This document shows, piece after piece, positions 9,411-32,239 of a stretch of DNA of 45,977 nt. Below the pieces are notes generated by a model. That model searched no databases, was not told the origin of the DNA, and saw only the letters and a list, made by a program, of their open reading frames with translations. Positions within the stretch are counted from its first letter, which is position 1; the number at the start of each line of letters is the position of its first letter. The translations under genes and the position numbers were made by a program. The stretch is from an uncultured Oscillatoriales cyanobacterium (GTDB taxonomy: Bacteria > Cyanobacteriota > Cyanobacteriia > Cyanobacteriales > Microcoleaceae): assembly GCA_903893625.1 (NCBI GenBank), contig CAITND010000156.1:1-45977 (forward strand), read 5' to 3'.

Positions 9411-9764
9411 ATGCGAAAAATTGACTATTACATAACCGCCTCCGGTAATGATCCAGTTAAAAAGTTTATTAATTCTCTCTCGACAACACAAAAAAAGAAA
9501 ATTTCTGATGTGTTTAAGCTAATTCTGGAAACAGAGGTAGTTTCAATTAAATTGTTAAAAAAATTAAAGAGTACAGATAATATATGGGAAATTAGAGTCA
9601 GTTTAGATGGAAATATATTTAGATTTCTAGGGTTTCGAGAACAGAATAATTTAATTATTTTAACAAATGGGTTTGCTAAAAAAACACAAGAAACGCCCTT
9701 ACAGGAAATTAAATTAGCTGAAAAGCGTAAACAAGATTACTTAAACAGCAAGGAGTTAAAATGA
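9411..9764 (+). CDS. HigB/RelE-superfamily (phage Gp49-like) protein
   Basis: 117-aa basic protein. MRKIDYYITASGNDPVKKFINSL, LLKKLKSTDNIWEIRVSLDGNIFRFLGFRE and ILTNGFAKKTQETPLQEIKLAEKRKQDYL follow the Gp49-like/HigB toxin pattern (strand-helix-helix-strands ending in a lysine-rich helix). Family members are ribosome-dependent mRNA interferases usually paired with an Xre-type antitoxin. No such antitoxin follows: the next gene is the NACHT protein, whose ATG overlaps this TGA by 4 nt (ATGA). It may therefore be an effector or regulator of that protein, or a toxin whose antitoxin was replaced. A five-codon mini-ORF (ATG 9406) overlaps the start. Confidence 0.82.
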   Translation: MRKIDYYITASGNDPVKKFINSLSTTQKKKISDVFKLILETEVVSIKLLKKLKSTDNIWEIRVSLDGNIFRFLGFREQNNLIILTNGFAKKTQETPLQEIKLAEKRKQDYLNSKELK

Positions 9765-12700: not shown

Positions 12701-13621
12701 AAAAATCGTTTTAATACGGCAATAAAATTAGGAAAAATTGATCCAGGTAATTCCGAAGCTGTGGAAGTTTTGATGGCTGTTTCACAAGATCAGAATGAAG
12801 ATGAATTCACTCGTATTCGCGCTGTAGAAATGCTAACTCAAATGGGTTATATTAGCAAAGAAATTATGAATAATCTACTGTCTATGATTCCTTTAGATAA
12901 AAGATTGGGTTATAATTTAAAATTGGCATTAATTAATATTTTTAAAGCCCAAGTTTATCCTGAAGCAGTTTCTATCTTTAAAAATTATTTGTCTGATCAA
13001 CAATTGTCTGAATTTAGTCGTGAGAATGAGCGTCAAATTCGTGATTTGCTTTGGAATTGCGCTCAAAATATGAGCTATGCTGAATTCTATCAAGCTTGGT
13101 ATCGTCAACCCACAACTACCCATCCAGAGATTTTAGAAATAACGGGAATTAAGGTTAATCTGGAAATGCAAAAATTAATTTTGCAAAATCTAGCTCAAAG
13201 TTTGACGAATCAAATACAAACTGAACCGAACCTGAACGCCAGTATACTGCCAATTTTGATTGATAGCAATACATTTATTGATCCTGATAATCCCAGCAGT
13301 AAAATTTATACAGAAATGGTAAAAGGTGGGTGTCTGACCTATGCAGAGGGAACGCCAAAAACGATGATAGAATTACAAGCGTATTGGGATTTATTAAAAA
13401 GCGATCGCATAGTTATTTTAGTGTTTTATGATAGTCAAGCTTTATCAGAAAATCCCAAAGAGTTTAGTCCAATTTTTATCAATCAACTCAAGACGTTTAC
13501 AGGTGCGATCGCTTTGATCACGGATCAACCCATTGGTCAATTTCAACAATTTTCACCCCAAGAACCGCAATTGATTGAAAATGTTATTAAATGGTTACGA
13601 TCGCTGGTTGCAGAGTTTTAA
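9761..13621 (+). CDS. NACHT-domain NTPase (bacterial NLR-like STAND protein) with helical repeats
   Basis: 1286-aa STAND protein. A ~120-residue N-terminal region precedes a NACHT ATPase: Walker A GEPGAGKTTLL at 127-137 and Walker B IWLLLDGVDEM at 201-211, followed by sensor-1-like IVLTCRLNLWEA and a winged-helix region (FYHPTFEEYFAALAIKDWD). Residues ~480-1130 are helical HEAT-like repeats (for example NSEAVEVLMAVSQDQNEDE). The last ~130 residues form an alpha/beta domain (ILPILIDSNTFIDPDNPSSK ... RIVILVFYDSQAL ... GAIALITDQP). Bacterial NACHT proteins are known anti-phage sensors that oligomerise on ligand binding. AAGGAG five bases before ATG 9761 fixes the start. It overlaps the HigB-like gene by 4 nt. 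What it senses is unknown. Confidence 0.9.
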   Translation: MTTSDFRQHLEELKANDPEFAENFDFGYALFKKAWSTVTDYEQYNPMTSNIVTGGDGLEFEREDIYVPLGLIERQQRPKRDKNQGSPEQGSEIYQEKITPISSDTFFEDILGQGKSKSQGKRIAIIGEPGAGKTTLLQKIAEWILVETDEIPVWVSLADLGTRSLREYILEDWLRDATQELENPPQKIKDAFNKSLKDGKIWLLLDGVDEMGVDYPLQTLATQLKEGWIKNVRIVLTCRLNLWEANRNELYNFQFDIYRNLNFNREQIHNFIENWFQGINPERGQKLDTALNQAGKERICDLVKNPLRLALLCWTWQRDQGNLPETKAELYRQFVEVHYEWNKTRTTDQQRQKLNSALGKLALTAIDQFQSRFRLRESFVRQIFNQIDPELFDLALTLGWLNRVGVAAENPGEKVYAFYHPTFEEYFAALAIKDWDYFLPREHNNQNPQPISGKKYRIFEKQWKEVFLLWLGREDIATTQKEEFLQKLIVFQDNCDNYYRFQAHFIAALGVAEFKNFSQAENLFDQLVNYGFGYWDSNNNKWQSYPHWLRNSARSLLQETDSIYTAHALTEKGLENFQIQQNNPKTAEQLSSILADIIYSLGKVNSENDVFIIWLRKDLEKNYKKNTDFFKYTLLPYLKTLRKLAPSSIKDLLNFLKRIYRGLYEQTMEKIETQVQQIEDDISTEFQEGFSRLASLEEFKKGFGKSLENAQREREEEVFNELLSVLEQFGYRNSIMIDFIQNLLTLENIKESGRFRLIKLLEKIDPDYAARSSDEQNDDPISDEDLINFINSNPSEFKQVQVALKRLDFNSDDSLAIEILSNLMENSQNEELRYDIAEKLIEFDIKRAEAIATLTGLMNQSQDSSSQEEAAKLSIKINHQTFMAVKVLVDKYCPKELPKETDDFWIEDMEECDSSNYEVLKDYLIQYPQVIEPLSQILRNSQDDQEKEFVVNLLGEAGRNSSNPIAVEVLTEEIIYTNDSKNRFNTAIKLGKIDPGNSEAVEVLMAVSQDQNEDEFTRIRAVEMLTQMGYISKEIMNNLLSMIPLDKRLGYNLKLALINIFKAQVYPEAVSIFKNYLSDQQLSEFSRENERQIRDLLWNCAQNMSYAEFYQAWYRQPTTTHPEILEITGIKVNLEMQKLILQNLAQSLTNQIQTEPNLNASILPILIDSNTFIDPDNPSSKIYTEMVKGGCLTYAEGTPKTMIELQAYWDLLKSDRIVILVFYDSQALSENPKEFSPIFINQLKTFTGAIALITDQPIGQFQQFSPQEPQLIENVIKWLRSLVAEF

Positions 13622-19329: not shown

Positions 19330-19371
19330 TAATTGGTATTTTCCATCCCCGCTTAAGCAAAGATGAGGACA

Positions 19372-19818
19372 TTAACTTTCTTCAGGAGGCAAACTCGCTT
19401 TCCATACTTTACAAATTTCTTGCGAACTCGATGTGGCAATTTTTTTAACGACTAACGTAGCAATTAAAGTAGCGATCGCAGGGGCTAGTCCTAATCCAGA
19501 TACAAGCAGAGGAGCCAACATTCCCGCCGCTTTTACATAATTTTGGTTAATGACTTCATCTAATACGTTTTGCGCTTCTGAATCTGAACCCAAAGGATTA
19601 CACATCAGATCATAAAGTCCTGCACTGAGTCGTTTTAGTAATTGTTGACCAGCGGCTAATACTTCAGGACTGATGGCTGCTCTAGCGGTGGCATTAATAT
19701 CAATTGAATCAAGGGTTAGTCCTTTGGCTGTATCTTGAACTTGAAGACCCAACTGTGCTTCTAGGGATTCTTCATCAAGTTCTAATAACTGTGGGATTAA
19801 TTCATTGTAATCTTGCAT
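19372..19818 (-). CDS. Small protein with C-terminal hydrophobic segment, last gene of the caspase cluster
   Basis: 148 aa; I do not recognise a named family. Residues 1-95 are soluble and helical (for example ELIPQLLELDEESLEAQLGL). Residues ~97-125 are strongly hydrophobic (AAGMLAPLLVSGLGLAPAIA then TLIATLVV), long enough for one or two tight membrane helices, followed by a basic segment KKIATSSS. There is no N-terminal signal peptide. A GGAGG Shine-Dalgarno precedes the ATG by 7 bp. It lies 134 bp downstream of the caspase-STAND-WD40 gene in the same direction, with a strong hairpin in between. A membrane-acting effector or an inhibitor of the proteases are both conceivable; this is inference only. 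Confidence 0.7.
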   Translation of the reverse strand: MQDYNELIPQLLELDEESLEAQLGLQVQDTAKGLTLDSIDINATARAAISPEVLAAGQQLLKRLSAGLYDLMCNPLGSDSEAQNVLDEVINQNYVKAAGMLAPLLVSGLGLAPAIATLIATLVVKKIATSSSQEICKVWKASLPPEES

Positions 19819-19854
19819 TGGAAACCTCCAGTTAAAGTCAGTATATTGTTTTTT

Positions 19855-19902
19855 ATATCAACAGATTAAAAATAGTAAAATCCACCTTTAATCTGTTGAT
19901 AT
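19855..19902 (-). repeat. 16-bp hairpin inside the caspase cluster
   Basis: ATATCAACAGATTAAA (19855-19870) and its exact reverse complement (19887-19902) around a 16-nt loop. On the minus strand no T-run follows, so it is not a standard terminator. It may be an attenuator, an RNA-processing site or a stabilising 5' structure for the last gene. Confidence 0.6.
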
Positions 19903-19952
19903 ATTTTACCAGAAGACTAGCTTAAAGTCAAATCAATTAATTAAGATTTTAA

Positions 19953-22900
19953 TTATTTTTCTGTCTCTAAGCAAATTTTTGGCTGGCTTTTATCCACAAA
20001 GTTACTATTTTGTAGATAAGGTTTTGCCCACGCACAACTTTTTTCTAGCAACTGATCTAAATTTAAGGAATCCAAATTCCAGAGAATTAATTTTTTATCC
20101 CAGCCAACGGAAGCTAGAGTTTTACCATCGGGACTAAAATCCACTCCAAAAACCCGGTCTGTATGTTCTGATAAAGTAAGAGGTTGGCTACTCTCTAAGT
20201 CCCAAAGTTTTACCGTATTGTCTTGACCCGCAGAAGCGATCATTTTGCTATTAGGGTGAAATGCTAAACCATAAACAACTCCATTATGTCCTGTAAAAGT
20301 TTTCGTAGATTGATATTTACCTTGAGAATTTCGTTCCCAAACTCGAATTGTACCATCTGCACTCGCTGAAGCCAGAATAGAACTGTCAGAGCCAAAAGCA
20401 ACTTGATTAATGCTTGCACTATGACCGCTAAGAATATCAAAAGCTTTCTGCTCAAACTGACCATTAATCTCTTTTTTCCAAAGTTTTACTGTCCCATCTT
20501 CATGCGATACTGCTAATATTTGATCGTCGGGACTGAAGGTTATTTTTCTACCATAAGCTAATGAATTTTCAGCATCAGCAGTTGAAAGAGTTTGAACAAT
20601 TTCATAAGAGCCATTATCTGGCTTTTTCCAAATTCTGACCTTTTTGTCCGAACTGGTTGATGCCATTTCTGAACCATCAGAATTAAATGCAATTCCACGA
20701 ATCTGATACCCTATATTCTTGGGTTGAGGAACTTTAGCTTTACTGAAATGACCTGTTTGATCGAGTTGCCACAGGATGATTTTACCATCTTCATCGGCCG
20801 ATGCAATGGTAGAGTTATCAGGGCTAAAAGCTAGAGTATAAATTCTTTTTTTATGTCCTGTCAATAGAGGAGAGTTTTGTTCATAAACTCCTTGATTATT
20901 TCGTCGCCAAACCTTGATTGTTTTATCTGCACTCGCTGTAGCCAACCATAAACCATCATCACTGAAATCAACAGCATACACAACATCTGTGTGTTCTGAA
21001 AAAACTTGATTTTTTAAAATAGGTTCTGGTTTCCACAGTTGAATGGTATTGTCTGCACCTGCTGAAGCAATGATCGAACTATCGGAGTTGAAACTAACAG
21101 AACGAACATCACCTCCATGACCTTCAAAAGTTGTGATCAAAGCCTCTTTTTCCACATCCCAGAGTTTAACCGTCCGATCTTGTCCAGCCGAAACAATTTT
21201 AGAACTATCAGGACTAAAACTAACCCCACGAACTCCATCAATATGCCCGGTCAACTCTTTAATCAAAGTACCGTCTGATTTCCATAGCTTAATTTTTCCA
21301 TCTCCATGACCGGAAGCAATATAAGAACCATTAGGACTATAAGCAATTCCATAAACTATAGTTTTTTCCTGGTCAAAATATTTCACATATTTTATGGAAG
21401 TACCGTCTATCTTCCAAAGTTTAATTCCATCTCTACCTGCTGTTACCAGTTCAGATTTATTTGGACTAAAGCTAACGGAATAAATAGCATCTTGGTGCTG
21501 ATTCTGTTGGGTGCCTAAATATCCTAACCAGGTTCCATCTTTCTTCCACAGACTTACTTTTTCATCAACTCCGGCTGAAGCAATTAAAGTTCCAGTAGGA
21601 TTAAAAGCAACCGCTAAAATATTACCTGTATGTTTTTTAGGATCAAATGTTCGATCAGGTTTAGTTTTAAATTGACCTGTACTGTCTTTGCTCCAAAGTC
21701 GGATTTTTCCACCTAGGCTTCCTGAAATTAGGGTATAACCATCAGGGCTAAGGCTCAAACTCGAAACTTGCCTATCCGGTACTTTAAGAGTTTGTTTTAG
21801 GGGCTGACTTCCATCTTGATTCCAAATTTTAATTTTTCCATCTTCACTGGCAGAGATAATTTGATGATCATTTTTGGGATCAAAGATAACGGTGGTTATG
21901 GGTGCGGCGTGAGCTTGCCAACGATTCAATTGTCTAATCTTATAACCTATTCTTTGCAAACTATTAATCGCCTGCATCTCTAATTCACGACCAGGCATGA
22001 ATACGGAATTTGGGTTGAATATTGTCATCAAATTCTTGCCATTTTTTACACTTTCCCCAGCTTGAATCGCATTCTCAAGTGCTTTTAACGGCTGTTGAGA
22101 ACTTAAAAATGCTTCAGAAGATTGAATTAATGCCTGGAATCGTTGTTTTTTGGCTTGATTTTGATTAAATAAAGCTAAAGCTGCAAATCCTAAAATGATC
22201 AAATTAACGGAAAACAAAATAATCATCAAACGAATTAATTTGTTTTGCTTCCGCTTCAGGCTATCATTAACAAAAGTTGTTTCTTCCTGATTTAACCAAT
22301 GCGGATCTAATTTCAGTTGGGCTTTAACTTGGGGAAGTCGAGGATCATCATCCCAAAGTAAACGTACTACTTCTGAATTCTTAAACCCCTGTTTGGCAGT
22401 TTCAGCAGCTTTGTCCCAATCACTAACATTTGAAATCAAACTTTTTTGCAATACTAGATTTGATTGTTCTTGCTTGAGCCACTTCTGTAACAGATCCCAA
22501 CCTCGAACTAAATAATCATGGGCAGGTTCAATACAGGATTCTCCGCTTTCTTGACTTTTAACAATTAAACGAGCATTAACGAGGCGTTCAGTTACTTCTT
22601 TAACTCGCTGATTTTCCTGGGGATCTGCATAAATCAACTCCGATTCTGGTATCCGACGCCGTGCGATTTCTCCACCCTCAATCATCACCATTCGTAGCAT
22701 CACCCGTCGCAGGGTCATTTGGTGGGCTTCACCTGATACTTGACCAAAATCTTTGATTAGATTGTCATACTCCTCAGTCGCCTGACGGGTGAGTGCCCCG
22801 TTTACACCACCGAGTTCCTCATAGTCTTGCATTCGCAAAGCCCGATCGCAACAATTCGGGTCTTCTCTCCATCGCTGGGCAAGTTTGATATACAGTTCAC

Positions 22901-24809
22901 TCAAGGTAAAAGAAAGTAGGGGTAATGCTCCTGGAGTCTGCGCCAGTTCATCAATTAACCGACCCACTAACTCAGAGGGTTCAAAATGTAACGCTTGTTT
23001 GCAGGCGGGCTTTTCAATGGCATCTCGTAACTCATCGGAAGTCATGATCCGAATGGGAAAACGCCCGTTTTGCCAATAGGGTGTTAAGGGAGAATTGTGA
23101 AAACGAGGTTCAAAATCTGAACGCAGGGTCACAACCAGATGGAAATAGTTAGCATGGCATTCTAAAGCCGTTTTAAACAGGGATAGGAACTGTTGCCACT
23201 GTTGTTGCTCAGTCGCCCCAATTTGAGGACTCATGGTAATCAGTTCTTCAAATTGGTCAATCACCAATAAGAGTTGAGTCGATGGATTAACTTGACTCCA
23301 TTTTTTAATAATTGATGTCAAGGACTGAGGATTTTGTTGAAGTTCTTGGATCAGGGGTTTAAGGGTTTCTTGAATGGCACGATAGAGATGCTCCAGTTGT
23401 TTTTGCTCTTGGGGTTGAGCACACAAGGTTTGTAACTGATGCCAATAGTCTACAACTAGGCATAATTTGGTTTCTGGCAGGGAAAGATGCCAAGATTGGG
23501 CTAACTTTTTAATTTCATCTGATGTTGGGTTTGAGGACTGAACCCTCTGGGATTCCACAATATCAGCCAACCGTTGATCTAAAAAGCTAACTTGCGCTAG
23601 TTGAGTCAGAAGATTGGGATTTTTTACAGGAAGCAGGATTTTTGCTAACTCGATAAATGGATATTTACCCGGTCGCATGGTATCGAGAATATACCAACGT
23701 TTCTGTTGCGGGTCTTGGTTCTGGCGCAGAATAGGTAGTAATCCCGCTTTAACTAAACTAGACTTACCTGAACCCGACGCACCGACAACAACGGTTAGGG
23801 GATGGGCGGATTTAACCAGGCGATCGCTCAATTCTTTTACAAGAGTTTCACGACCAAAAAAGAAGAGAGAATGCCTTTCTTCAAAAGATTTTAAGCCTCG
23901 ATAGGGATTATTAATTTCATTGAGTATGGGTGCAGGTTGTAGCTGTTTCTTGGCATCAAAATCGGGTTGGGTAAAGATAAATTCGCCCTTATCGTATTCT
24001 ACGCGCATAGAATAAAGTCCTGGTTTTTGATGTTCACGGGACAATTCAATGACTCGCTGTTCCAGATATAAATACAACTCATGGGCTGTAATCACTTGAT
24101 CGTGAATAAAATCCGCTTTATTTTCTAATAGTCCTTCTAGCAACCCCAAGGCAAAGGGAGAATGCAATTCCTGATTTTGATCGGCAATGCTACCCCGTTT
24201 GTCTTGGGCTAAGGTAGCAACATCTAATGCTTCTTGATCCTGGGCTGAGGAGGTAATTACTTGCCATGCAGGATAACGAATAAACCGATCATAGTGTTCC
24301 TTATAAACTGTTTTTAGGATGGGTATCATTTTGCGATGACCCGCCCAATTAAACATTCCTGCAAAGCAGCAGTCGAGGATAACCAACAAATGATGACACT
24401 CCAATTTTTCCAGGGCTTGGCGCACATCTGCCATTGACAAAAACGAATCTTGGTTCTGTCCATCTGCATCTTGAGGGACAAGATACCCCGCAGGGCCATC
24501 GTTACTGTTCCGGGGAATACCATGACCTGCAAAGTAAAAAATCAAGCGGTCGGCATCTGTGGGTTTGAGTTGCTTTAATAGGGTGTCATTCAATAAAGTT
24601 TGCAGTCCACTTAATGTGGCATCTTCGTCCAACACAGAAATAATATTTTCGGGTTGATATTTATATTGTGTTTGCAGTAAATGGGCGATCGCTTTGGCAT
24701 CACTCACAGGTGTTTTCAAGTCATGAATACTATCATTTTTGTAATGATCAATGGCAATCACTACTGCTAGATTACGATCAAAATTTGTTCTTTCATAGTT
24801 CCAAGGCAT
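19953..24809 (-). CDS. Caspase-nSTAND1-WD40 protein
   Basis: 1618-aa multidomain protein. Residues ~12-285: caspase-like peptidase C14 fold with His96 in FYFAGHGI and Cys148 in LDCCFAGMF. Residues ~302-780: novel STAND NTPase starting NPYRGLKSFEERHSLFFFGR, with Walker A GASGSGKSS at 343-351 and Walker B QLLLVIDQFEEL at 512-523. A single membrane helix spans ~859-881 (LMIILFSVNLIILGFAALAL). From ~965 to ~1590 there are about a dozen WD40 repeats with many GH...WD/W.. signatures (for example KIVSAGQDRTVKLWDVE). Expected mode: the WD40 propeller senses a ligand, the STAND module oligomerises with ATP, and the caspase is activated by proximity. GGAGG precedes the ATG. It lies downstream of a second caspase gene. 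Confidence 0.93.
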   Translation of the reverse strand: MPWNYERTNFDRNLAVVIAIDHYKNDSIHDLKTPVSDAKAIAHLLQTQYKYQPENIISVLDEDATLSGLQTLLNDTLLKQLKPTDADRLIFYFAGHGIPRNSNDGPAGYLVPQDADGQNQDSFLSMADVRQALEKLECHHLLVILDCCFAGMFNWAGHRKMIPILKTVYKEHYDRFIRYPAWQVITSSAQDQEALDVATLAQDKRGSIADQNQELHSPFALGLLEGLLENKADFIHDQVITAHELYLYLEQRVIELSREHQKPGLYSMRVEYDKGEFIFTQPDFDAKKQLQPAPILNEINNPYRGLKSFEERHSLFFFGRETLVKELSDRLVKSAHPLTVVVGASGSGKSSLVKAGLLPILRQNQDPQQKRWYILDTMRPGKYPFIELAKILLPVKNPNLLTQLAQVSFLDQRLADIVESQRVQSSNPTSDEIKKLAQSWHLSLPETKLCLVVDYWHQLQTLCAQPQEQKQLEHLYRAIQETLKPLIQELQQNPQSLTSIIKKWSQVNPSTQLLLVIDQFEELITMSPQIGATEQQQWQQFLSLFKTALECHANYFHLVVTLRSDFEPRFHNSPLTPYWQNGRFPIRIMTSDELRDAIEKPACKQALHFEPSELVGRLIDELAQTPGALPLLSFTLSELYIKLAQRWREDPNCCDRALRMQDYEELGGVNGALTRQATEEYDNLIKDFGQVSGEAHQMTLRRVMLRMVMIEGGEIARRRIPESELIYADPQENQRVKEVTERLVNARLIVKSQESGESCIEPAHDYLVRGWDLLQKWLKQEQSNLVLQKSLISNVSDWDKAAETAKQGFKNSEVVRLLWDDDPRLPQVKAQLKLDPHWLNQEETTFVNDSLKRKQNKLIRLMIILFSVNLIILGFAALALFNQNQAKKQRFQALIQSSEAFLSSQQPLKALENAIQAGESVKNGKNLMTIFNPNSVFMPGRELEMQAINSLQRIGYKIRQLNRWQAHAAPITTVIFDPKNDHQIISASEDGKIKIWNQDGSQPLKQTLKVPDRQVSSLSLSPDGYTLISGSLGGKIRLWSKDSTGQFKTKPDRTFDPKKHTGNILAVAFNPTGTLIASAGVDEKVSLWKKDGTWLGYLGTQQNQHQDAIYSVSFSPNKSELVTAGRDGIKLWKIDGTSIKYVKYFDQEKTIVYGIAYSPNGSYIASGHGDGKIKLWKSDGTLIKELTGHIDGVRGVSFSPDSSKIVSAGQDRTVKLWDVEKEALITTFEGHGGDVRSVSFNSDSSIIASAGADNTIQLWKPEPILKNQVFSEHTDVVYAVDFSDDGLWLATASADKTIKVWRRNNQGVYEQNSPLLTGHKKRIYTLAFSPDNSTIASADEDGKIILWQLDQTGHFSKAKVPQPKNIGYQIRGIAFNSDGSEMASTSSDKKVRIWKKPDNGSYEIVQTLSTADAENSLAYGRKITFSPDDQILAVSHEDGTVKLWKKEINGQFEQKAFDILSGHSASINQVAFGSDSSILASASADGTIRVWERNSQGKYQSTKTFTGHNGVVYGLAFHPNSKMIASAGQDNTVKLWDLESSQPLTLSEHTDRVFGVDFSPDGKTLASVGWDKKLILWNLDSLNLDQLLEKSCAWAKPYLQNSNFVDKSQPKICLETEK

Positions 24810-24849
24810 GGCTAAAAGTCCTCCGGGCTAGTCGAGGCTTGAATTCAGT

Positions 24850-24905
24850 CCTAAAACCCAGGAAATAAAAATAGTATTTTTGCGATTATTTTCTGGGATT
24901 TTAGG
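24850..24905. repeat. Imperfect ~19-bp hairpin between the two caspase genes
   Basis: CCTAAAACCCAGGAAATAA (24850-24868) pairs, with a few mismatches, with TTATTTTCTGGGATTTTAGG (24886-24905). It may regulate the ratio of the upstream caspase to the downstream caspase-STAND gene. Confidence 0.5.
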
Positions 24906-24924
24906 AGGTTTAAATTATCTAAAA

Positions 24925-27081
24925 TTACAACTCTTGTGTGATTGTAAAGCGCACTTCTTTGGTTAACCACTCCGCATTTGGATTGGGTTTGACACGCATA
25001 GAACGAGATATTGTCGGTGGATTATCAACGTCAGCACCAATGGTTGAAAATAGTTGATTCATCAGGTTAATATTCCCTTCTCCTTTTGTTCCTGCTTTTT
25101 CATCTAGGACAGCATTCAAATCTCCTTTACGTCCTAAATCTTCATCAAGGGCAGGCAAGGTTAGCCATTGAAAATTAGCTAATCCACGAGTTGCAAAGAG
25201 TTTTAGAGTTTCGTCGGCTTGCTTATAATTCATGCTGTCTGGTAATCCTGGTTCCAAATCAATCTCAATTTCTTGCTTATTTTCTAAAAGAGAAAAGATA
25301 TCTTGACTTCCATTAATCGGAATCTGAGAAATTGCCCAGGTTGGCTCCAAATCCAAAATAGCAATATTGAGAATTTGTCCAGAATTATTTTTGACTCGTA
25401 AATAAACCGATTCTCCTTCCTTCAAGATAATCTGGTTTTGGTTAGCAAAAGGTTTTTTATTGCTATCTAATAATTCCATATCAATTTGTTGCTCTAATTT
25501 TGAGTTGGAATTATCCAGACTTTGTATGGCTTGATACTTTGTTAAATGAACTAAACGCTTAACTACAGTTGCACCCACTTTTGGATCATTAATTTTCAGG
25601 GGTAAACCTAAGTTTTTCAAAGGTGTTGCGCTACAAATTTCATACTCCCCATTTCTGCCAACTGCAACTTGATAATCAGCTTCTTGATTATTCTCCGGTT
25701 GAACTTCTAAAACCCAGCCATTCCCGATTAATGCTTGCCGAACAATGTCTAACGCTTCTGTTTGTTGATTAACAAACTCCGGTGGCAGTTCATTCTCCTG
25801 ATTCCCAGCCTGTTTTTTATCAAATAAACGAACACGACGCACCAGTTCAACGGGTGCAGAAACCAAAACCGCAGGGGAACCGGGTTCTATATTTCCTCGG
25901 ACTTCAAAACCTCCAGTTTCCGGTAGTAAAACTTTAGCGATGGATTTAGAAGCCTGAACATCCTCTAATTCCACAATGGCTAGTTGCTGTTGCGGGTTAG
26001 AAAAATCCGTTGTATTCAGGGGATAAATGCCAAAGCGTGTACATGAGCTTAGTCCTTGGGCTAACCCAGCATCGAGAGTAACCTGGTTTCCATTAACGCT
26101 CGTAACATAAACGCTATAGGGAGTTAAAATGCGATCGCTACCGAATACTGAACGATTGCCGTCACCCAGTAACATCGGTAATTGTTGAGGAAACTTACTT
26201 TGAATTTGAGCGCAAATGCGATGATACAAAGCGCTAAAACTAATTCCCTTATTCCGAGTAGCCAGGGTATCCATCAACCAATAGGTTAACGCTCCATGTC
26301 GTTCTGTACCATTCACCGCATATTCATAGGCAAATTCATTGGGGCGACAGGCGGCTAAAAGAACGTAATTCTTGGTTTGAGGAACCCAAGAAACGCCACT
26401 ATAGTTTTCAGTGGCTAATGCTTTCCAGTTATTAATAAGTTCGTCACGATCAAAACCTAAACTGTCTGCACTTCGGGATGCTGTATCAATACGGTCAAAA
26501 CCTAAACTGTCTGTACTTCGGGATGCCGTATCAATTCCTTCTCCACCTCGAATGGCAGCATCCCCTCGCGTTGTCCCCCCGGAGTGACAACTATCCAGAA
26601 TTACCGTCACCACTAACCCTTTATCGGTCATGCGTTTGAGCAGGGTTGCTAATTCCACATCTCGCAGATAACGATCTTCTTGATCCCCTATATCCATCGG
26701 GACAAGGGCTTCATCGGGTTGGTCAGTTTCCTTGAGTTCTGGATAGATAGTTGTCGCCCGTCCTCCATGTCCAGAGTAATAAATACAAACTTGTTCTCCG
26801 GGTTGAGCAAGTTCTGTAATGGCGTGAAACTTCCCGACAATATTTTCATAAGTCGGTAGCAGGTCTGAAGTAACACTCGAATCATAAATTTCAGGATTTT
26901 GAGAAATTAACTTAACAATTTGTTCCGATGGAATTTTTAGAGTGCTTAAGAAATAATTTCCCACTAAGTTAATATCGCGTACACATCCCTTGAGATTTTT
27001 ATACATCTGATTGGTATTATAACCATCAATGCCGATTAAAAGGGCATAAAATTTGGTTTTTTGTTCAGATAAGTTGGACAT
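24925..27081 (-). CDS. Caspase-like protease (peptidase C14) with C-terminal DUF4384-like region
   Basis: 718 aa. The N-terminal ~330 residues are a caspase-like fold: YALLIGIDGYN, catalytic His105 in YYSGHGG, catalytic Cys165 in ILDSCHSGG, and AACRPNEFAYEY. Bacterial relatives (orthocaspases) cleave after Arg or Lys. Between the Cys motif and the next core strand is an Asp/Ser-rich loop made of two near-identical 15-residue units (IDTASRSTDSLGFDR). Residues ~345-718 contain beta-rich modules, including GESVYLRVKNNSGQILNIAI, a DUF4384-like pattern often found attached to such proteases. No signal peptide. A GGAGG sits just before the ATG. It is third in the minus-strand cluster, 57 bp after the M15 peptidase gene. 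Confidence 0.9.
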   Translation of the reverse strand: MSNLSEQKTKFYALLIGIDGYNTNQMYKNLKGCVRDINLVGNYFLSTLKIPSEQIVKLISQNPEIYDSSVTSDLLPTYENIVGKFHAITELAQPGEQVCIYYSGHGGRATTIYPELKETDQPDEALVPMDIGDQEDRYLRDVELATLLKRMTDKGLVVTVILDSCHSGGTTRGDAAIRGGEGIDTASRSTDSLGFDRIDTASRSADSLGFDRDELINNWKALATENYSGVSWVPQTKNYVLLAACRPNEFAYEYAVNGTERHGALTYWLMDTLATRNKGISFSALYHRICAQIQSKFPQQLPMLLGDGNRSVFGSDRILTPYSVYVTSVNGNQVTLDAGLAQGLSSCTRFGIYPLNTTDFSNPQQQLAIVELEDVQASKSIAKVLLPETGGFEVRGNIEPGSPAVLVSAPVELVRRVRLFDKKQAGNQENELPPEFVNQQTEALDIVRQALIGNGWVLEVQPENNQEADYQVAVGRNGEYEICSATPLKNLGLPLKINDPKVGATVVKRLVHLTKYQAIQSLDNSNSKLEQQIDMELLDSNKKPFANQNQIILKEGESVYLRVKNNSGQILNIAILDLEPTWAISQIPINGSQDIFSLLENKQEIEIDLEPGLPDSMNYKQADETLKLFATRGLANFQWLTLPALDEDLGRKGDLNAVLDEKAGTKGEGNINLMNQLFSTIGADVDNPPTISRSMRVKPNPNAEWLTKEVRFTITQEL
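26447..26536. repeat. Two tandem 45-bp units inside the caspase gene
   Basis: Units 26447-26491 and 26492-26536 differ at only a few bases and both keep the reading frame. They encode the IDTASRS(T/A)DSLGFDR duplication, in the loop following the catalytic cysteine. Recent slippage or unequal crossing-over is likely. Confidence 0.9.
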
Positions 27082-27138
27082 TTTTCCTCCGGGTTAAAAT
27101 TTGGATAAAAGAGTTCTGAATTAGAAAGTCACCCTGAT

Positions 27139-28053
27139 TTAAGCTAAGTGTTGACGAGTTTCTGTCCCAACAATACCATCTGCTTTCAAATTCTTTTTCT
27201 GTTGAAATTCTTTAACAGCTTTGTCTGTTCCTGATCCAAAAACTCCATCAGTTGACACAGTAATTGCTGCATTTTTTAAGCAGGTTTGCAACCATTTCAC
27301 ATCCGATCCTTCCATCATCGGTCTGCACAACCGTAGGACTCTGGGTTGTTCATCCCAAGGTGCTTTAGAAAACCCCATTGCGGGAGAACGGTTTAATGCT
27401 GACTCGGTTTCGCCACCAAGTCCATAAATTCCATCCTCTGTAATTCGTTCATTGGGATGATTTTTATTCCACAGTTTTTGAAAGGCTAAAATAGCTGTGG
27501 AACGAATATCTTTAGTCCCGCCTCCTACATAATCAAAATGGGGAGGATCTCCAGCTAAAGGATACCAATTTTGAGCCATTAAATAGGGTTCCCAACCTCT
27601 GGGATCTTCAATATCAAGGGCTAACCCACTTTGATGATTACTTGACCCTGGGAAGGCAACAGCACTAATCCCGTTGTACCAATTATAGAGCAACATTTGT
27701 TGGGCAATGGTGCGATAGGAGGAGTTAACAACCATCGGAATTTCTCGGGCTGCGATCGCTCGTTTTAGAGCTTCTTTTGCCGGAGGTTGCACTAGAGGAA
27801 ATGCCGCATCACCTAAATCAACCTTCAGATCATCACAACTAACTAAAGCGTTAGGAAGAACCAGGTTAATTTGATGAATGAGTTGTTGAGAAAGGGCATT
27901 AACAATCGCCGTAGACCCACCGGGGACATCTCGGACTAAACCATTAAAACTAGCTCGAATAGCTGAACGTGATTCTTGTTCATAAAATTCAAAACAAGCT
28001 TCGATTTCAGGGTTTTCCAAGAGATTTGGATGCTGATGTTCTGGATTGGACAT
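27139..28053 (-). CDS. M15-family D,D-peptidase with peptidoglycan-binding domain
   Basis: 304 aa. The central domain (~90-180) has the zinc ligands of VanY/D-Ala-D-Ala carboxypeptidases: His140 and Asp147 in SSNHQSGLALDIED, and His172 in DPPHFDYV, plus the conserved SSYRT. It should hydrolyse D-Ala-D-Ala bonds of peptidoglycan stems. The C-terminus (~235-304) is a PG_binding_1 three-helix module (DVKWLQTCLKNA ... DGVFGSGTDKAVKEFQQ ... DGIVGTETRQHLA), introduced by RVLRLCRPMMEG. There is no N-terminal signal peptide or membrane helix, odd for a cell-wall enzyme. It lies 60 bp after the lysozyme gene and is followed by the caspase gene; GAGG precedes its ATG. Confidence 0.88.
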   Translation of the reverse strand: MSNPEHQHPNLLENPEIEACFEFYEQESRSAIRASFNGLVRDVPGGSTAIVNALSQQLIHQINLVLPNALVSCDDLKVDLGDAAFPLVQPPAKEALKRAIAAREIPMVVNSSYRTIAQQMLLYNWYNGISAVAFPGSSNHQSGLALDIEDPRGWEPYLMAQNWYPLAGDPPHFDYVGGGTKDIRSTAILAFQKLWNKNHPNERITEDGIYGLGGETESALNRSPAMGFSKAPWDEQPRVLRLCRPMMEGSDVKWLQTCLKNAAITVSTDGVFGSGTDKAVKEFQQKKNLKADGIVGTETRQHLA

Positions 28054-28113
28054 AATAACTTTTCCTCGATTTCAAGGCGTTTTTTTAGAGTTTAACTTCG
28101 GATTTTATCTCGT

Positions 28114-28998
28114 TTATAAACCCAATTTTTTTAACGTTTCAGCACCAGCAATACCATCTACCGTTAAATTATTTTGCTGTTGAAACTGTTTAATTGCCTG
28201 TTGGGTTTGTCCTCCAAAAATGCCATCGGGTTGTAGATTAAATCCCGCGTTGACCAGGGCTTTTTGTAGTTGCTCAACATCCTGACCTTGCATTAACGGT
28301 TGACCCGGTTCAGATAAGCGTAAAACTCGTTTAATTTCCCAAGATTCACTTAAAAATAAAGAACGTTCGGCTCTCCGACGACGAGATAAACCCGCTAATA
28401 CTTGTCCTCCGGCTTTATCCCATCTCAAAAATTGATCCGCAGCCTCTTTATATTTTCCTTGGTTTAAAAGTTTTAACAAAGTTGACTCAAATAAAGCTCT
28501 GGCTCCGACGTTATAACAAAAAGAAACTAAAGCCGAAAATTGATTATCATTAATATCAACTTTCACCCCATCAAGAACGGAAATTTCATATTTTTTCATT
28601 TCTTTTTTGAGGCGTGCTTCTGCTTCTGGAATGGTCATGGTCATGCCTTCATAAACCCCTTCTGTAAATCCCCAGCCAATTGTCCAGATATCAACGGGGT
28701 CAAGATAAGCTTCTACATAAGCACCATTAGAACCTTGCTTTAATTCATGCAATCCTTCAAAGGATTTAATCAGTTTAATTCCTTCTGCATTAATTTTTCT
28801 AGTGGCGGATCTGGGTTCAACAGCACCCCGTGATCCTATATCCTCATCTGGAATCACTTCAAAGGTTTCTGCTGAAGTGAATTGTAGGGTTTCAATTAGC
28901 AGTTGAATGTGTCCCTGAGTTTCCGTAACTTGTATAATTTGTTCTTCTTGAAACTCATAAATACTGCCATCTTTTGCGATTTTAAGGGTTCTGTTCAT
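28114..28998 (-). CDS. GH24 lysozyme-like muramidase with peptidoglycan-binding domain
   Basis: 294 aa and first gene of the cluster. An N-terminal ~60-residue module (MNRTLKIAKDGSIYEF...) of unknown role precedes a phage-type lysozyme fold (~68-215): catalytic Glu81 in IKSFEG, then AYLDPVDIWTIGWG, LVSFCYNVGARALFESTLLK and GLSRRRRAERSLFL. This enzyme cuts the MurNAc-GlcNAc backbone. The C-terminal PG_binding_1 module (~225-294) is introduced by RVLRLSEPGQPLMQG, closely matching the linker of the M15 peptidase. No signal peptide. The Shine-Dalgarno is weak. A phage origin is possible for the lysozyme domain, but no other phage genes are nearby. Confidence 0.9.
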   Translation of the reverse strand: MNRTLKIAKDGSIYEFQEEQIIQVTETQGHIQLLIETLQFTSAETFEVIPDEDIGSRGAVEPRSATRKINAEGIKLIKSFEGLHELKQGSNGAYVEAYLDPVDIWTIGWGFTEGVYEGMTMTIPEAEARLKKEMKKYEISVLDGVKVDINDNQFSALVSFCYNVGARALFESTLLKLLNQGKYKEAADQFLRWDKAGGQVLAGLSRRRRAERSLFLSESWEIKRVLRLSEPGQPLMQGQDVEQLQKALVNAGFNLQPDGIFGGQTQQAIKQFQQQNNLTVDGIAGAETLKKLGL

Positions 28999-29023
28999 AA
29001 TAAAAAAATGGGAAGTTTGGAAA

Positions 29024-29044
29024 CCGCGTCTCTTCAGAGCGCGG
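29024..29044 (+). repeat. IS200/IS605-type end hairpin (remnant)
   Basis: CCGCG-T-CTC-TTCA-GAG-CGCGG: a 5-bp stem, one unpaired T on the 5' arm, a 3-bp stem and a tetraloop. This matches the architecture of the hairpin ending the tnpB element at 32249-32269. IS608-type transposases are known to recognise such hairpins through an unpaired T. Confidence 0.5.
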
Positions 29045-29698
29045 AGGAAAAACGACTCAAGAGAATTTATTCTCCTTGAATACTAGATTGAGAATCGACA
29101 AAAATTGTTGTATTTGCCGATTCCTGGTTTTTTGGTATTTCTACCACACTGATTTCTCAGGTTAAGTTAGCTTCGCCAATGTTATCGGTCGGTAACTATC
29201 TCAAAAGCACTGTCTTACCCCTCGTAAAACTGTTTAACTTTCGAGTTTTAGAGCTTGGAACTAGCTTCGCATCCCAAGGTAAGAACTTTAACGCTTACCG
29301 ATAACGGAGTCAGTTAAGACTTAGGCTGGTCAACTAACTAAAGTTAGAGGCATGAAGCCCCGTCACTTTAGTGCGGGGTGCTGACTCTTGGACTCCTTGA
29401 TTTGGTTTAGTTTAACAATTGAAATTTATAAATCCAGGGTAAATTTACAAAACTTAGTAATTTATACTTGATTAATTCTTGAAGGTTGTCTCAAAGGTTA
29501 TAGCGGTGGCGATCACCTTATTATTGGTTTGTTCAATGCAATAGCGCGAATTTTAAATTAATAGACTCAAAGACAACACTCTGCTAATACCCAACGGACT
29601 TTTACAACAATATTATTGTTTAAATTCCTAAATGAAAAATATAGCAATCCTCTACTCAAATCTGGGAACAATGCGGTAAAGTAAGGGATTTAGCACCA
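29045..29698. other. Gene-free spacer with IS605-like remnant
   Basis: No coding sequence supported. It contains a short palindrome (GAGAATTTATTCTC near 29071), an IS605-type hairpin at 29359-29379, and then ~320 bp of AT-rich DNA up to the dehydrogenase gene. The ~190 bp upstream of the second hairpin could be a decayed transposon end or guide-RNA scaffold (omega-RNA-like). The rest shows nothing I can name. Confidence 0.45.
29359..29379 (+). repeat. IS200/IS605-type end hairpin (remnant)
   Basis: CCCCG-T-CAC-TTTA-GTG-CGGGG: 5-bp stem, unpaired T, 3-bp stem, TTTA loop, in the context GCATGAAG...TGCTGAC. This matches the hairpin after tnpB (CCCAT-C-GCC-TTTA-GGC-ATGGG) in every structural detail. 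There is no tnpA or tnpB next to it. Confidence 0.6.
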
Positions 29699-31054: not shown

Positions 31055-32239
31055 ATGCTGGTACTAGAAGTAAAGTTGAGCGGAAAAAATTGGCAGTATG
31101 AGGCACTGGATGAAGCTATTCGTACTACTAATTTTGTTCGTAATAAGGCTTTAAGGTACTGGATGGACAATCGCGGTGTTAGCAAAAACGATCTGCAAAA
31201 ACTTTGTGCCACTTTAGCTAAGGAATTTGAGTGGGCTAAAAAACTTAATTCTCAAGCTAGACAAGCTGCTGCTGATCGAGCTTGGATGGGAATTTCTCGG
31301 TTTTATCAAAACTGTCAAAAACAGAAACCCAAGAAAGGCTACCCAAAATTTAAAAAAAGAGGCCGATCAGTTGAGTATAAACAAACGGGTTGGTCTCTTT
31401 CAGCCGAGCGAAAAAAAATCACATTTACTGATGGCTTTCAAGCCGGAACTTTCAAGTTAATCGGTACTCGTGATCTAAATTTCTATCAGCTTGAGCAAAT
31501 CAAACGGATTAGGGTTGTTAAAAGAGCCGATGGGTATTACTGTCAATTCTTAATTAAGGTAGATCGTTCCGAGCCACAAGCACCTACGGGTAAAGCAGTT
31601 GGAATTGATTTAGGAATTGAAAGTTTCTACACTGATTCAGAAGGAAATCAAATCGAAAATCCCAGATTCTTGAGAAAGTCAGAGCAGTCCTTAAAAAGAC
31701 TACAACGACAAGTTTCTCGAAAAAAGAAAGGCTCTAACAACCGCAAGAAAGCCATTAATAAGATGGCGAGAAAACACCTTCATGTCAGTAGGCAACGTCG
31801 AGAATTTGCAGTAAAAATTGCACGGCGTTTAGTAACATCTAGCGATGTGATTGTCTATGAAGATTTAAAAGTGTGTAATTTAGTTAAGAATCATAGACTG
31901 GCTAAATCAATCTCAGATGCAGCGTGGTCAATGTTCACAGATTGGGTAGATTATTTTGCTAAAATACATGGAGTTCATGTATTTGCAGTAGCACCCCATT
32001 TCACATCTCAGGATTGTCATCAATGTGGTAAGAGAGTAGAAAAATCTTTATCAACTCGTACCCATAAATGTCCTAATTGTGAATTAGTTGAACATCGAGA
32101 TTTAAACGCGGCAAAAAACATTTTAGCAAGAGGATTAGGATTAAAAAATACGGTGGGGCACACCGGAATTTATACGCTTGAGGAGACTGAACCTCTGGTT
32201 AGTTCTGAGCAATCAGAATTGGTTAAGTGCGGTCATTGA
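31055..32239 (+). CDS. tnpB: TnpB, RNA-guided nuclease of IS200/IS605-type element
   Basis: 394 aa, full length for TnpB. An N-terminal helical/HTH region (MLVLEVKLSGKNWQYEALDE ...) and basic KKGYPKFKKRG segment precede the RuvC-like core: Asp in VGIDLGIES, Glu in IVYEDLKV and Asp in EHRDLNAAKNI. The four-cysteine zinc finger is CHQCGKR...HKCPNCE. All catalytic residues are present, so it should be an active DNA nuclease guided by an omega-RNA from its own 3' end. No TnpA transposase gene lies nearby, so this is a solo tnpB that depends on a helper in trans. Confidence 0.95.
   Translation: MLVLEVKLSGKNWQYEALDEAIRTTNFVRNKALRYWMDNRGVSKNDLQKLCATLAKEFEWAKKLNSQARQAAADRAWMGISRFYQNCQKQKPKKGYPKFKKRGRSVEYKQTGWSLSAERKKITFTDGFQAGTFKLIGTRDLNFYQLEQIKRIRVVKRADGYYCQFLIKVDRSEPQAPTGKAVGIDLGIESFYTDSEGNQIENPRFLRKSEQSLKRLQRQVSRKKKGSNNRKKAINKMARKHLHVSRQRREFAVKIARRLVTSSDVIVYEDLKVCNLVKNHRLAKSISDAAWSMFTDWVDYFAKIHGVHVFAVAPHFTSQDCHQCGKRVEKSLSTRTHKCPNCELVEHRDLNAAKNILARGLGLKNTVGHTGIYTLEETEPLVSSEQSELVKCGH

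Follow-up and report, generated by a model that had tools for sequence, protein, structure and literature searches.

The five-gene minus-strand block described here, from an uncultured filamentous Oscillatoriales cyanobacterium that probably belongs to Planktothrix, is best explained, judging by its sequence, as a caspase-gated self-lysis cassette, an assignment on which we are evenly divided. What is new is that the small protein SML, the M15 peptidase and the GH24 lysozyme each have a variable linker ahead of the functional domain, in which a basic-small dipeptide, [RK]|[GAS], is conserved. Protease-gated suicide systems are a kind already known, and a self-lysis cassette would be a variant of it.

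The window is the whole stretch of 45,977 nucleotides that was analysed (contig CAITND010000156.1). ORF calling places five ORFs in the block 19372..28998, and their coordinates and gaps of 60, 57, 115 and 134 bp agree exactly with those given by an earlier sequence-only reading of this DNA. The GH24, M15, caspase, caspase-nSTAND1-WD40 and SML ORFs are 294, 304, 718, 1618 and 148 aa long (Table 1). Most of the ribosome sites had been described as strong and GGAGG-type, which by eye holds for three of the five genes: a clear GGAGG precedes the caspase, caspase-STAND and SML genes, whereas the M15 gene has a weaker GAGG and the GH24 gene no evident site. A scan for promoters and terminators returned 24 promoter-like sites where 24.7 were expected and 6 terminator-like sites where 9.6 were expected; being near or below expectation, these counts say nothing about an operon. 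That the arrangement goes beyond chance follows from the occurrence of the same order in other genomes.

Table 1. Features of the block and its surroundings (window coordinates)
Feature	Position	Strand	Basis
SML, 148 aa: conserved N-terminal motif, variable linker, conserved hydrophobic C-terminal region	19372..19818	-	alignment
Predicted caspase cut site R46|A47, SML linker	19678..19683	-	alignment, position checked
Caspase-nSTAND1-WD40 protein, 14 WD40 stretches	19953..24809	-	ORF calling, Pfam
Caspase-like protease (C14), H105/C165 dyad	24925..27081	-	Pfam, alignment, structure-matched profiles
Predicted self-processing site R178|G179, loop after catalytic cysteine of caspase	26545..26550	-	alignment
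M15 (VanY-like) peptidoglycan peptidase, C-terminal PG-binding domain	27139..28053	-	Pfam, alignment
Predicted caspase cut site R33|A34, immediately N-terminal to M15 domain	27952..27957	-	linker motif
GH24 lysozyme, C-terminal PG-binding domain	28114..28998	-	Pfam, PHROGs, alignment
Predicted caspase cut site R63|S64, N-domain/lysozyme-domain boundary of GH24	28807..28812	-	alignment, position checked
Second candidate cut site R57|G58, GH24	28825-28830	-	sequence motif
Accessory insert in variable hotspot, ftsH / dehydrogenase-like gene flanks	19342..29597 (approximate ends)	.	interval comparison

Both wall hydrolases have the residues expected of active enzymes in place. The GH24 protein matches Phage_lysozyme (2.7e-42) and PG_binding_1 (2.8e-19) in Pfam behind an N-terminal domain of 55-60 aa without assigned identity, and E81, D100 and T106, whose spacing we take to match that of T4 lysozyme, are invariant across 14 aligned rows. 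The M15 protein matches VanY (1.1e-7) and PG_binding_1 (1.4e-16), with H140, D147, D169 and H172 invariant in 13 aligned sequences. By eye, a signal peptide is evident in neither protein, so both probably start in the cytoplasm. Since both hydrolases match endolysins in PHROGs and the GH24 part shares 42-48% identity with phage lysozymes and endolysins (best 8 of 2611 phage records), prophage-derived lysis genes left beside caspases have to be considered as their source. We regard this as most improbable: the ten other window ORFs that were scanned include no phage structural gene and one Gp49-like gene, and the same gene order is found in unrelated places. In pattern-limited scans of IMG/VR viral contigs, no relatives of SML and three weak relatives of the M15 protein were found, so that the phage-record comparison and the viral contigs together lend a prophage origin little support.

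The 718-aa protein is a caspase (Peptidase_C14, 1.5e-18; 67.8 bits against a family cut-off of 21.4) for which metacaspases are the top-scoring solved structures; its C-terminal region is conserved and has no assigned fold. H105 and C165 are invariant across 15 sequences, and a strict His-Cys motif was matched in 46 of 52 homologues, the remaining six being four that retain H and C in variant motifs and two pieces without the N-terminus. R178, which lies in the loop that follows the catalytic cysteine, is invariant (15/15), with G, A or S next to it in 14 of the 15 sequences; of the 52 homologues, 42 had a loop that could be placed, and every one of these loops contains the basic-small motif. 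The 1618-aa protein joins an N-terminal C14 domain (62.6 bits against the cut-off of 21.4 in a genome profile search) to nSTAND1 (8.8e-100) and WD40 (2.6e-125; best 25 of 70 Pfam families), a composition that makes it the likely sensor, switch and initiator protease. For its loop the strict pattern failed on 22 of the 24 homologous rows; a looser pattern placed 15, and 14 of these have the motif. Orthocaspases cleave after positively charged residues (PMC6426788, in the available part of that text). The linker and loop motifs match this preference and are therefore marked as predicted cut sites, and the sequence-only reading, in which proteolysis unleashes wall degradation, gains with the linker motif a sequence signature that would link the caspase to the hydrolases.

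In each of GH24, M15 and SML, the linker that holds the predicted cut site lies below the median identity of the protein. The dipeptide occupies the cut-site position in 20 of 21 SML homologues, a count reached in 0 of 20000 shuffles. In GH24, R63 is invariant (14/14) and [RK][GAS] is present in 13 of 14 linkers, but 262 of 20000 shuffles equal this count, a modest enrichment that we count against the self-lysis reading. The same applies to the retention of the SML motif in both scorable loci without caspase or STAND, and to other stretches in which at least 90% of the rows retain [RK][GAS]: two below-median-identity stretches in M15 and one further window in SML.

SML itself was found in 28 of 388 genomes. 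Its peak hydrophobicity is a 19-residue stretch averaging 2.07 on the Kyte-Doolittle scale. The window's SML matched no Pfam family at E 0.1 and nothing in PHROGs, and across 21 members the Pfam search gave no holin or pore family and only four stray single-member matches. SML could also be an adaptor that, like effector-associated domains, joins caspase and effectors; the dipeptides would then be structural or coincidental and the hydrolases activated by recruitment. It is fused once to M15 (L105) and once to the caspase (L108), which is the pattern expected of adaptors according to the portion of PMC7159879 available to us, and it occurs with two different caspase-STAND sets at one hotspot. 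The fusions are as compatible with an adaptor as with a pore. However, at the loci seen SML otherwise stands alone as a gene and is not repeated on several partners, and the motif is retained in the variable linkers of three unrelated proteins and is rarer in M15 proteins without caspases, so that we consider an adaptor unlikely.

The M15 family allowed linkers to be compared with and without caspases. Of 64 domain-matching rows, 15 were left out of the count: 13 have fewer than 12 residues N-terminal to the domain (the fragments L116 and L118 among them), and the caspase-linked L235 and L106 start within the domain. Identical linkers were entered once and the window's own M15 was excluded. 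Where the locus has a recognised caspase, 19 of 19 linkers contain the motif, against 7 of 26 elsewhere, with a Fisher value of 2.9e-7 that is overstated because related sequences are not independent. A looser definition of caspase linkage, which also accepted loci where the second caspase type is represented by no more than its hydrolase-like C-terminal part and which affects L230 alone, gives 20/20 against 6/25; 0 of 20000 shuffles of these 20 caspase-linked linkers reach 20. The nearest caspase lies within 400 bp of M15 in 16 of the 19 loci, and at 678, 1818 and 7353 bp in L229, L227 and L156. Among the seven motif-positive genes without a recognised caspase, L117, L094 and L230 lie at the edge of a contig or close to it; L092 has SML and STAND nearby, the contig of L232 holds a caspase about 14 kb away, and in L258 and L104 the motif looks incidental. 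These data also bear on the view that GH24 and M15 serve ordinary wall remodelling, or attack on other cells, and are no more than neighbours of caspases, as might be argued from the many M15 relatives without a recognised caspase and from the abundance of PG-binding proteins in these genomes. We find this highly doubtful, given that the order is found in different families and at a separate site, with the N-terminal extension present, whereas 11 complete-looking M15 genes without a caspase begin nearly at the M15 domain.

GH24, M15 and caspase genes are adjacent in the window and in 12 other loci, spread over four GTDB families, and all five genes stand in the same order in the window and five loci, with two variants besides. 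The sequence-only reading had left it to other cyanobacterial genomes to show whether the order is conserved; it recurs there, and an artefact unique to this genome is thus ruled out. The five-gene cluster of that reading stands as a conserved moving unit, found also at a different site in genome G045 (L085), but not always as five genes on one strand: SML lies on the opposite strand in five of the seven five-place relatives (L087, L089, L096, L099 and L153; not in L085 and L158) and is thus a conserved neighbour rather than always an operon member. Two loci have a different putative wall enzyme in place of the peptidase, C39-like with PG-binding in L099 and M74-PG-binding-GH19 in L088. Between L089 and L090, M15, GH24 and SML are 95, 94 and 93% identical and the caspases 47%. 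On a tree of 50 caspases, hydrolase linkage switches at least 11 times. We count the shared gene order, the two SML fusions, the replaced peptidase, the exchanged caspase and these switches in favour of the self-lysis reading. Against it we count that in 29 of these 50 loci, some clipped by contig ends, no wall hydrolase is recognised within 6 kb. Two further candidates were set aside: the C39 gene near the caspase of L280 has a different N-terminus, lies on the opposite strand and has no motif preceding its domain, and the caspase-STAND-M74-GH19 fusion of L166 has a shortened STAND and may be a deletion product.

The interval between ftsH and the dehydrogenase-like gene measures 10.3 kb here. 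In two relatives it is about 8 kb long and holds a different caspase module, four relatives have about 2.1-2.3 kb and one has 6.9 kb without cassette genes; in two the flanks are non-adjacent. Such a hotspot is relevant to whether the cassette would lyse cells in a programmed way to break filaments (necridia, hormogonia), or kill them under stress, rather than defend against phage, with the same biochemistry and a different trigger. The named carriers are mostly Planktothrix, Microcoleus, Microseira, Argonema, Lyngbya, Okeania and Anabaena, which we take to be filamentous genera. Still, a patchy distribution, interchangeable hotspot cargo and swapped proteases look more like conflict systems, and one carrier is a MAG of Gloeocapsa, presumably a usually unicellular genus; a role in filament breakage or stress death therefore seems quite unlikely to us.

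For the caspase-gated self-lysis cassette we infer the following course. The WD40 array of the caspase-nSTAND1-WD40 protein would sense a trigger and the STAND ATPase would assemble; the assembled protein would first activate the caspase domain that it carries itself and next the separate caspase, through cuts in the basic-small loops. Active caspase would cut the same type of site in the GH24, M15 and SML linkers and remove the N-terminal prodomains. Freed SML, with its hydrophobic C-terminal part, might insert in or open the cytoplasmic membrane. Lysozyme and peptidase, once released, would gain access to the wall and cleave glycan and peptide bonds in it, and the cell would lyse, most likely stopping an intracellular invader within the filament. 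With less than even confidence, we suggest that a metacaspase-type protease frees an endolysin pair and a small membrane-active protein from inhibitory prodomains by cutting at one shared basic-small motif, that evolution exchanges the protease/STAND half and leaves the lytic half constant, cut sites included, and that this would be a bacterial counterpart of caspase-triggered lytic death.

Canu offers a precedent in which a caspase activates a gated pro-effector: as here, this anti-phage system has a caspase-family protease and an adjacent pro-effector with predicted cut sites, those of canu being needed for defence (PMC12799240, available portion). Its effector is described there as an MBL nuclease, whereas the present locus, known from sequence alone, has a wall-hydrolase pair, SML and a STAND-WD40 caspase; no MBL-fold nuclease domain is listed for the five proteins in Pfam (best 25 of 70 families for the 1618-aa protein). 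The CARD-NLR systems and LypABC of Caulobacter likewise combine an NLR-like ATPase with peptidases, there needed for host lysis, but have trypsin-like proteases and CARDs, with no wall hydrolase in LypABC, in place of caspases and GH24/M15 (PMC13236601). Among the five proteins no trypsin domain is listed in Pfam, again with the best 25 of 70 families for the 1618-aa protein. Membership in the EACC1-caspase systems was rejected, as the EACC1-associated caspase model NF047832 scored 75.1 and 21.3 bits, below its cut-off of 140, and no EACC1 partner was matched among 21 SML members at E 0.1 in Pfam, which we take to include an EACC1 model. As far as the accessible text of PMC7159879 goes, EACC1-caspase and NucA-trypsin-EAD1 systems likewise have a caspase, variable partners and a small constant component, and an EAD1-linked lysozyme and papain-like peptidoglycan peptidase were already proposed there as wall attackers. 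Those systems are built on a trypsin/NucA core with EAD1 adaptors and come mostly from alphaproteobacteria; here, no EAD/EACC1 model is matched, and a glycan cutter and a peptide cutter both adjoin the caspase. In four Amidase_2 fusions and one amidase operon, a metacaspase is likewise joined with a peptidoglycan hydrolase, a link that the authors relate to cell death (PMC3501461, as excerpted); the GH24-M15 pair, the STAND partner and the cut-site signature are, as far as compared, found here alone. Finally, the PADLOC candidate PDC-M35 has a small hydrophobic protein, PDC-M35B, beside a protease, as SML is here, but that protease looks trypsin-like by eye and not like a caspase. PDC-M35B matches 18 of 21 SML members weakly (best 3e-7, window 0.0057), which may point to a relation, and a comparison of profiles with two true PDC-M35B members, at a probability of 0.4%, showed none. 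The protease PDC-M35A is present in L301 and matched none of the five window proteins in PADLOC.

To our knowledge, few bacterial caspase substrates are known. Those named are an antitoxin (PMC7935541) and the canu nuclease (PMC12799240), each as given in the parts of these papers available to us. The locus provides three specific candidate substrates down to the residue. If the self-lysis reading is true, the locus directly connects protease-gated immunity with destruction of the wall, and does so in cyanobacteria that form blooms and mats, where regulated lysis is of ecological importance.

The five genes that the sequence-only reading had described were recovered by ORF calling at exactly its coordinates, and domain searches of the five proteins bore out its domain naming (see table). 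The caspase CAS is labelled 'caspase' by PADLOC (5.5e-43), and metacaspases are its top-scoring solved structures. The conserved positions E81/D100/T106 in GH24 (14-row alignment), H140/D147/D169/H172 in M15 (13 rows) and H105/C165 in CAS (15 rows) are likely catalytic, roles that we assign from family knowledge. Both GH24 and M15 carry short N-terminal extensions that, judged by eye, are not signal-peptide-like.

Coordinates of the cassette genes and of other features (positions in the window unless a fetched locus, L, is named)
Feature	Position	Strand	Description
GH24	28114-28998	minus	lysozyme, C-terminal peptidoglycan-binding domain
M15	27139-28053	minus	peptidase, C-terminal peptidoglycan-binding domain
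CAS	24925-27081	minus	caspase
CSW	19953-24809	minus	caspase-nSTAND1-WD40
SML	19372-19818	minus	small protein
HEARO RNA	29161-29385	minus	RF02033, 151.6 bits
TnpB/OrfB-like ORF	31055-32239	plus	
Gp49-like ORF, then NACHT-HEAT-NCAB1 protein	9411-13621	plus	
Serine recombinase-like gene	6480-7775	minus	
SML-caspase fusion	L108:3693-6485	minus	linker is a threefold Arg/Lys-rich repeat
Caspase-hydrolase frame	L166:2110-4788	plus	892 aa
PDC-M35A/PDC-M35B unit	L301:842-2079		
LCAT-like protein	L282:3383-4879		beside CAS-type caspase, other family
LCAT-like protein	L227:7990-9489		beside CAS-type caspase, other family

SML is present in 18 of the 61 genomes of the family and in 28 of 388 genomes sampled from the order, and the surroundings were fetched for part of these matches. 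Carriers known by name, from 18 loci, include Planktothrix rubescens, Microcoleus vaginatus, Microcoleus sp. FACHB-DQ6, Microseira wollei, Argonema antarcticum, Lyngbya aestuarii, Okeania hirsuta and Anabaena catenula, along with several MAGs. GH24, M15 and CAS are same-strand neighbours in the window and also in 12 fetched loci (L085, L086, L087, L089, L090, L091, where the contig end cuts GH24, L095, L096, L153, L223, L224 and L225) that span the GTDB families f1, f4, f22 and f32. The whole order, extended by CSW and an adjoining SML, is found in the window, L085, L087 (interrupted by two extra genes), L089, L096 and L153; SML lies on the opposite strand in L087, L089, L096, L099 and L153. 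L158 holds the five genes in a different order with two CAS genes, and L086 is without SML and has a CSW frame that stops before the WD40 part. By our own sorting of 32 fetched SML regions, several of them cut by contig ends, 20 also contain a recognised caspase, six have STAND or WD40 but no recognised caspase, and six have none of these; in one of these last (L157) a CHAT-domain gene adjoins. A further copy (L106, contig C3 of genome G013) is reduced to part of M15 and a short remnant of a caspase. Its M15 lies at the same position as in the Oscillatoria nigro-viridis PCC 7112 plasmid NC_019731.1, which means that plasmids, too, can acquire the cassette.

Among ten genomes of the genus, the interval between ftsH and a dehydrogenase-like gene varies in length and content. 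It measures 10.3 kb in the window, with the cassette, and about 8 kb in G045 and G046, where it holds SML, a different CAS and a STAND-WD40 gene (L101, L102) and no recognised hydrolase. Elsewhere on its chromosome G045 also has all five cassette genes, arranged as in the window (L085). The 6.9-kb interval of G047 gave no match to the cassette proteins, nor did three of the short intervals of about 2.1-2.3 kb (G048, G049 and G052, which share this length with G050), and the two flanking genes do not lie next to each other in G051 and G053. The cassette is therefore accessory and the site accepts interchangeable cargo, a property that appears to resemble defence hotspots. Just upstream of the GH24 gene lies a HEARO RNA, which looks like an orphan guide-RNA-like element because the next same-strand gene is GH24 and not an IscB-type ORF. 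A TnpB/OrfB-like ORF, recognised by eye from its translation, lies just past the dehydrogenase-like gene. About 6 kb from the cassette, the Gp49-like ORF and the 1286-aa NACHT-HEAT-NCAB1 protein form a possible second defence pair, and the window also contains a serine recombinase-like gene.

Two pairs of loci retain the lytic half but diverge in the protease and sensor half: L089 and L090 share 95% identity in M15, 94% in GH24 and 93% in SML versus 47% in CAS, and L085 and L086 share 90% in M15 and 91% in GH24 versus 57% in CAS and 49% in CSW. A tree was built from 50 CAS proteins, without the window's own; for 21 of them a recognised match to M15, GH24, M74 or GH19 lies no more than 6 kb away. 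This label changes 12 times on the tree (at least 11 by well-supported branches), compared with a mean of 16.4 for shuffled labels, which were as low as observed in 9 of 500 shuffles; hydrolase linkage is therefore clustered but was repeatedly gained or lost.

The effectors themselves are exchanged. In L099 a C39-like peptidase with a peptidoglycan-binding domain holds the M15 place between GH24 and CAS. In L088 the neighbour of CAS is an M74-PG-binding-GH19 protein, and a 66-aa vestige of the GH24 N-domain precedes it; L167 has an enzyme of similar M74-GH19 type on the opposite side of its CSW gene. These replacements suggest that every version would offer a glycan-cutter and a peptide-cutter, the least certain assignment being that of C39 as a wall peptidase. 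In other lineages the neighbours of CAS of the same type are LCAT-like proteins (L282 and L227 by Pfam scan, the rest by similarity), a possible alternative effector attacking membranes; Kaur et al. describe alpha/beta-hydrolase neighbours of caspases in VMAP systems (PMC7159879). Gene fusions occur as well: SML is joined to M15 in a single 373-aa frame (L105) and to CAS in a 930-aa protein (L108), whose repeat linker would put several candidate cut sites on offer. The L166 frame combines a caspase, the start of nSTAND1 and an M74-PG-binding-GH19 hydrolase, and may have arisen when a deletion joined adjacent cassette genes. In the same family, a two-gene unit (L301) consisting of a PADLOC PDC-M35A protease (2.9e-86), trypsin-like by eye, and a hydrophobic PDC-M35B perhaps parallels the SML partnership.

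Orthocaspase cleavage is described as following positively charged residues (PMC6426788). SML, M15 and GH24 have no sequence relation to one another, and all carry [RK]|[GAS], a candidate cut site, in a variable linker before the functional domain. Since homologues are not independent, the p-values rank rather than prove: the motif occurs in 20 of 21 SML homologues within a segment that covers 17 residues of the window's protein (within-segment shuffling predicts 8.3; 0 of 20000 shuffles as high), in M15 shuffling of 20 linkers gives 10.5 expected and again 0 of 20000 as high, and GH24, with 13 of 14 (9.0 expected; 262 of 20000 as high), is weaker than both. Unique M15 linkers contain it in 19/19 cases from recognised-caspase loci versus 7/26 of the rest (Fisher 2.9e-7), and in 20/20 versus 6/25 under a looser definition of caspase linkage (7.5e-8), a difference due to L230. 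GH24 R63 is invariant in all 14 rows. In CAS, R178 behind the catalytic cysteine is likewise invariant, and the residue after it is G, A or S in 14 of 15 rows. The loop motif is present in 42 of 42 locatable loops among 52 CAS homologues and in 14 of 15 among 24 CSW homologues. By eye, the M74-GH19 enzymes of L088 and L167 have 'GSR|G' and the C39-like enzyme of L099 has 'AR|G'; the motif is absent from the C39 protein of L280. All 15-residue windows were scanned for below-median identity combined with a motif that at least 90% of rows carry. The linker is the sole stretch that passes in GH24; one further window passes in SML and two further stretches in M15 (12 rows, L104 left out), and the signature is therefore not exclusive. 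The motif is also present in SML from the two scored loci that lack both caspase and STAND.

Precedents exist in metacaspase-amidase fusions, reported in 2012 (PMC3501461), and in the EAD1-linked lysozyme and papain-like peptidoglycan peptidases of trypsin-NucA systems, described in 2020 (PMC7159879). Term searches found neither 'lysozyme' nor 'peptidoglycan' in the main text of a cyanobacterial orthocaspase survey (PMC8283722) or of a paper on bacterial death domains (PMC8195603). Searches of the open-access literature for caspase with peptidoglycan hydrolase, endolysin, holin, lysozyme or STAND found no description of this cassette in the titles or abstract starts of the top matches listed. 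From the gene set through to the candidate cut sites, the proposed mechanism consists of results read from sequence. For the later steps, canu is reported as a gated nuclease that is activated by a caspase and loses defence when its predicted cut sites are mutated (PMC12799240), and LypABC as a system whose lysis requires an NLR-like ATPase and peptidases (PMC13236601). By analogy with both, the caspases would cleave the linkers and activate the effectors, and membrane opening would be followed by lysis of the cell.
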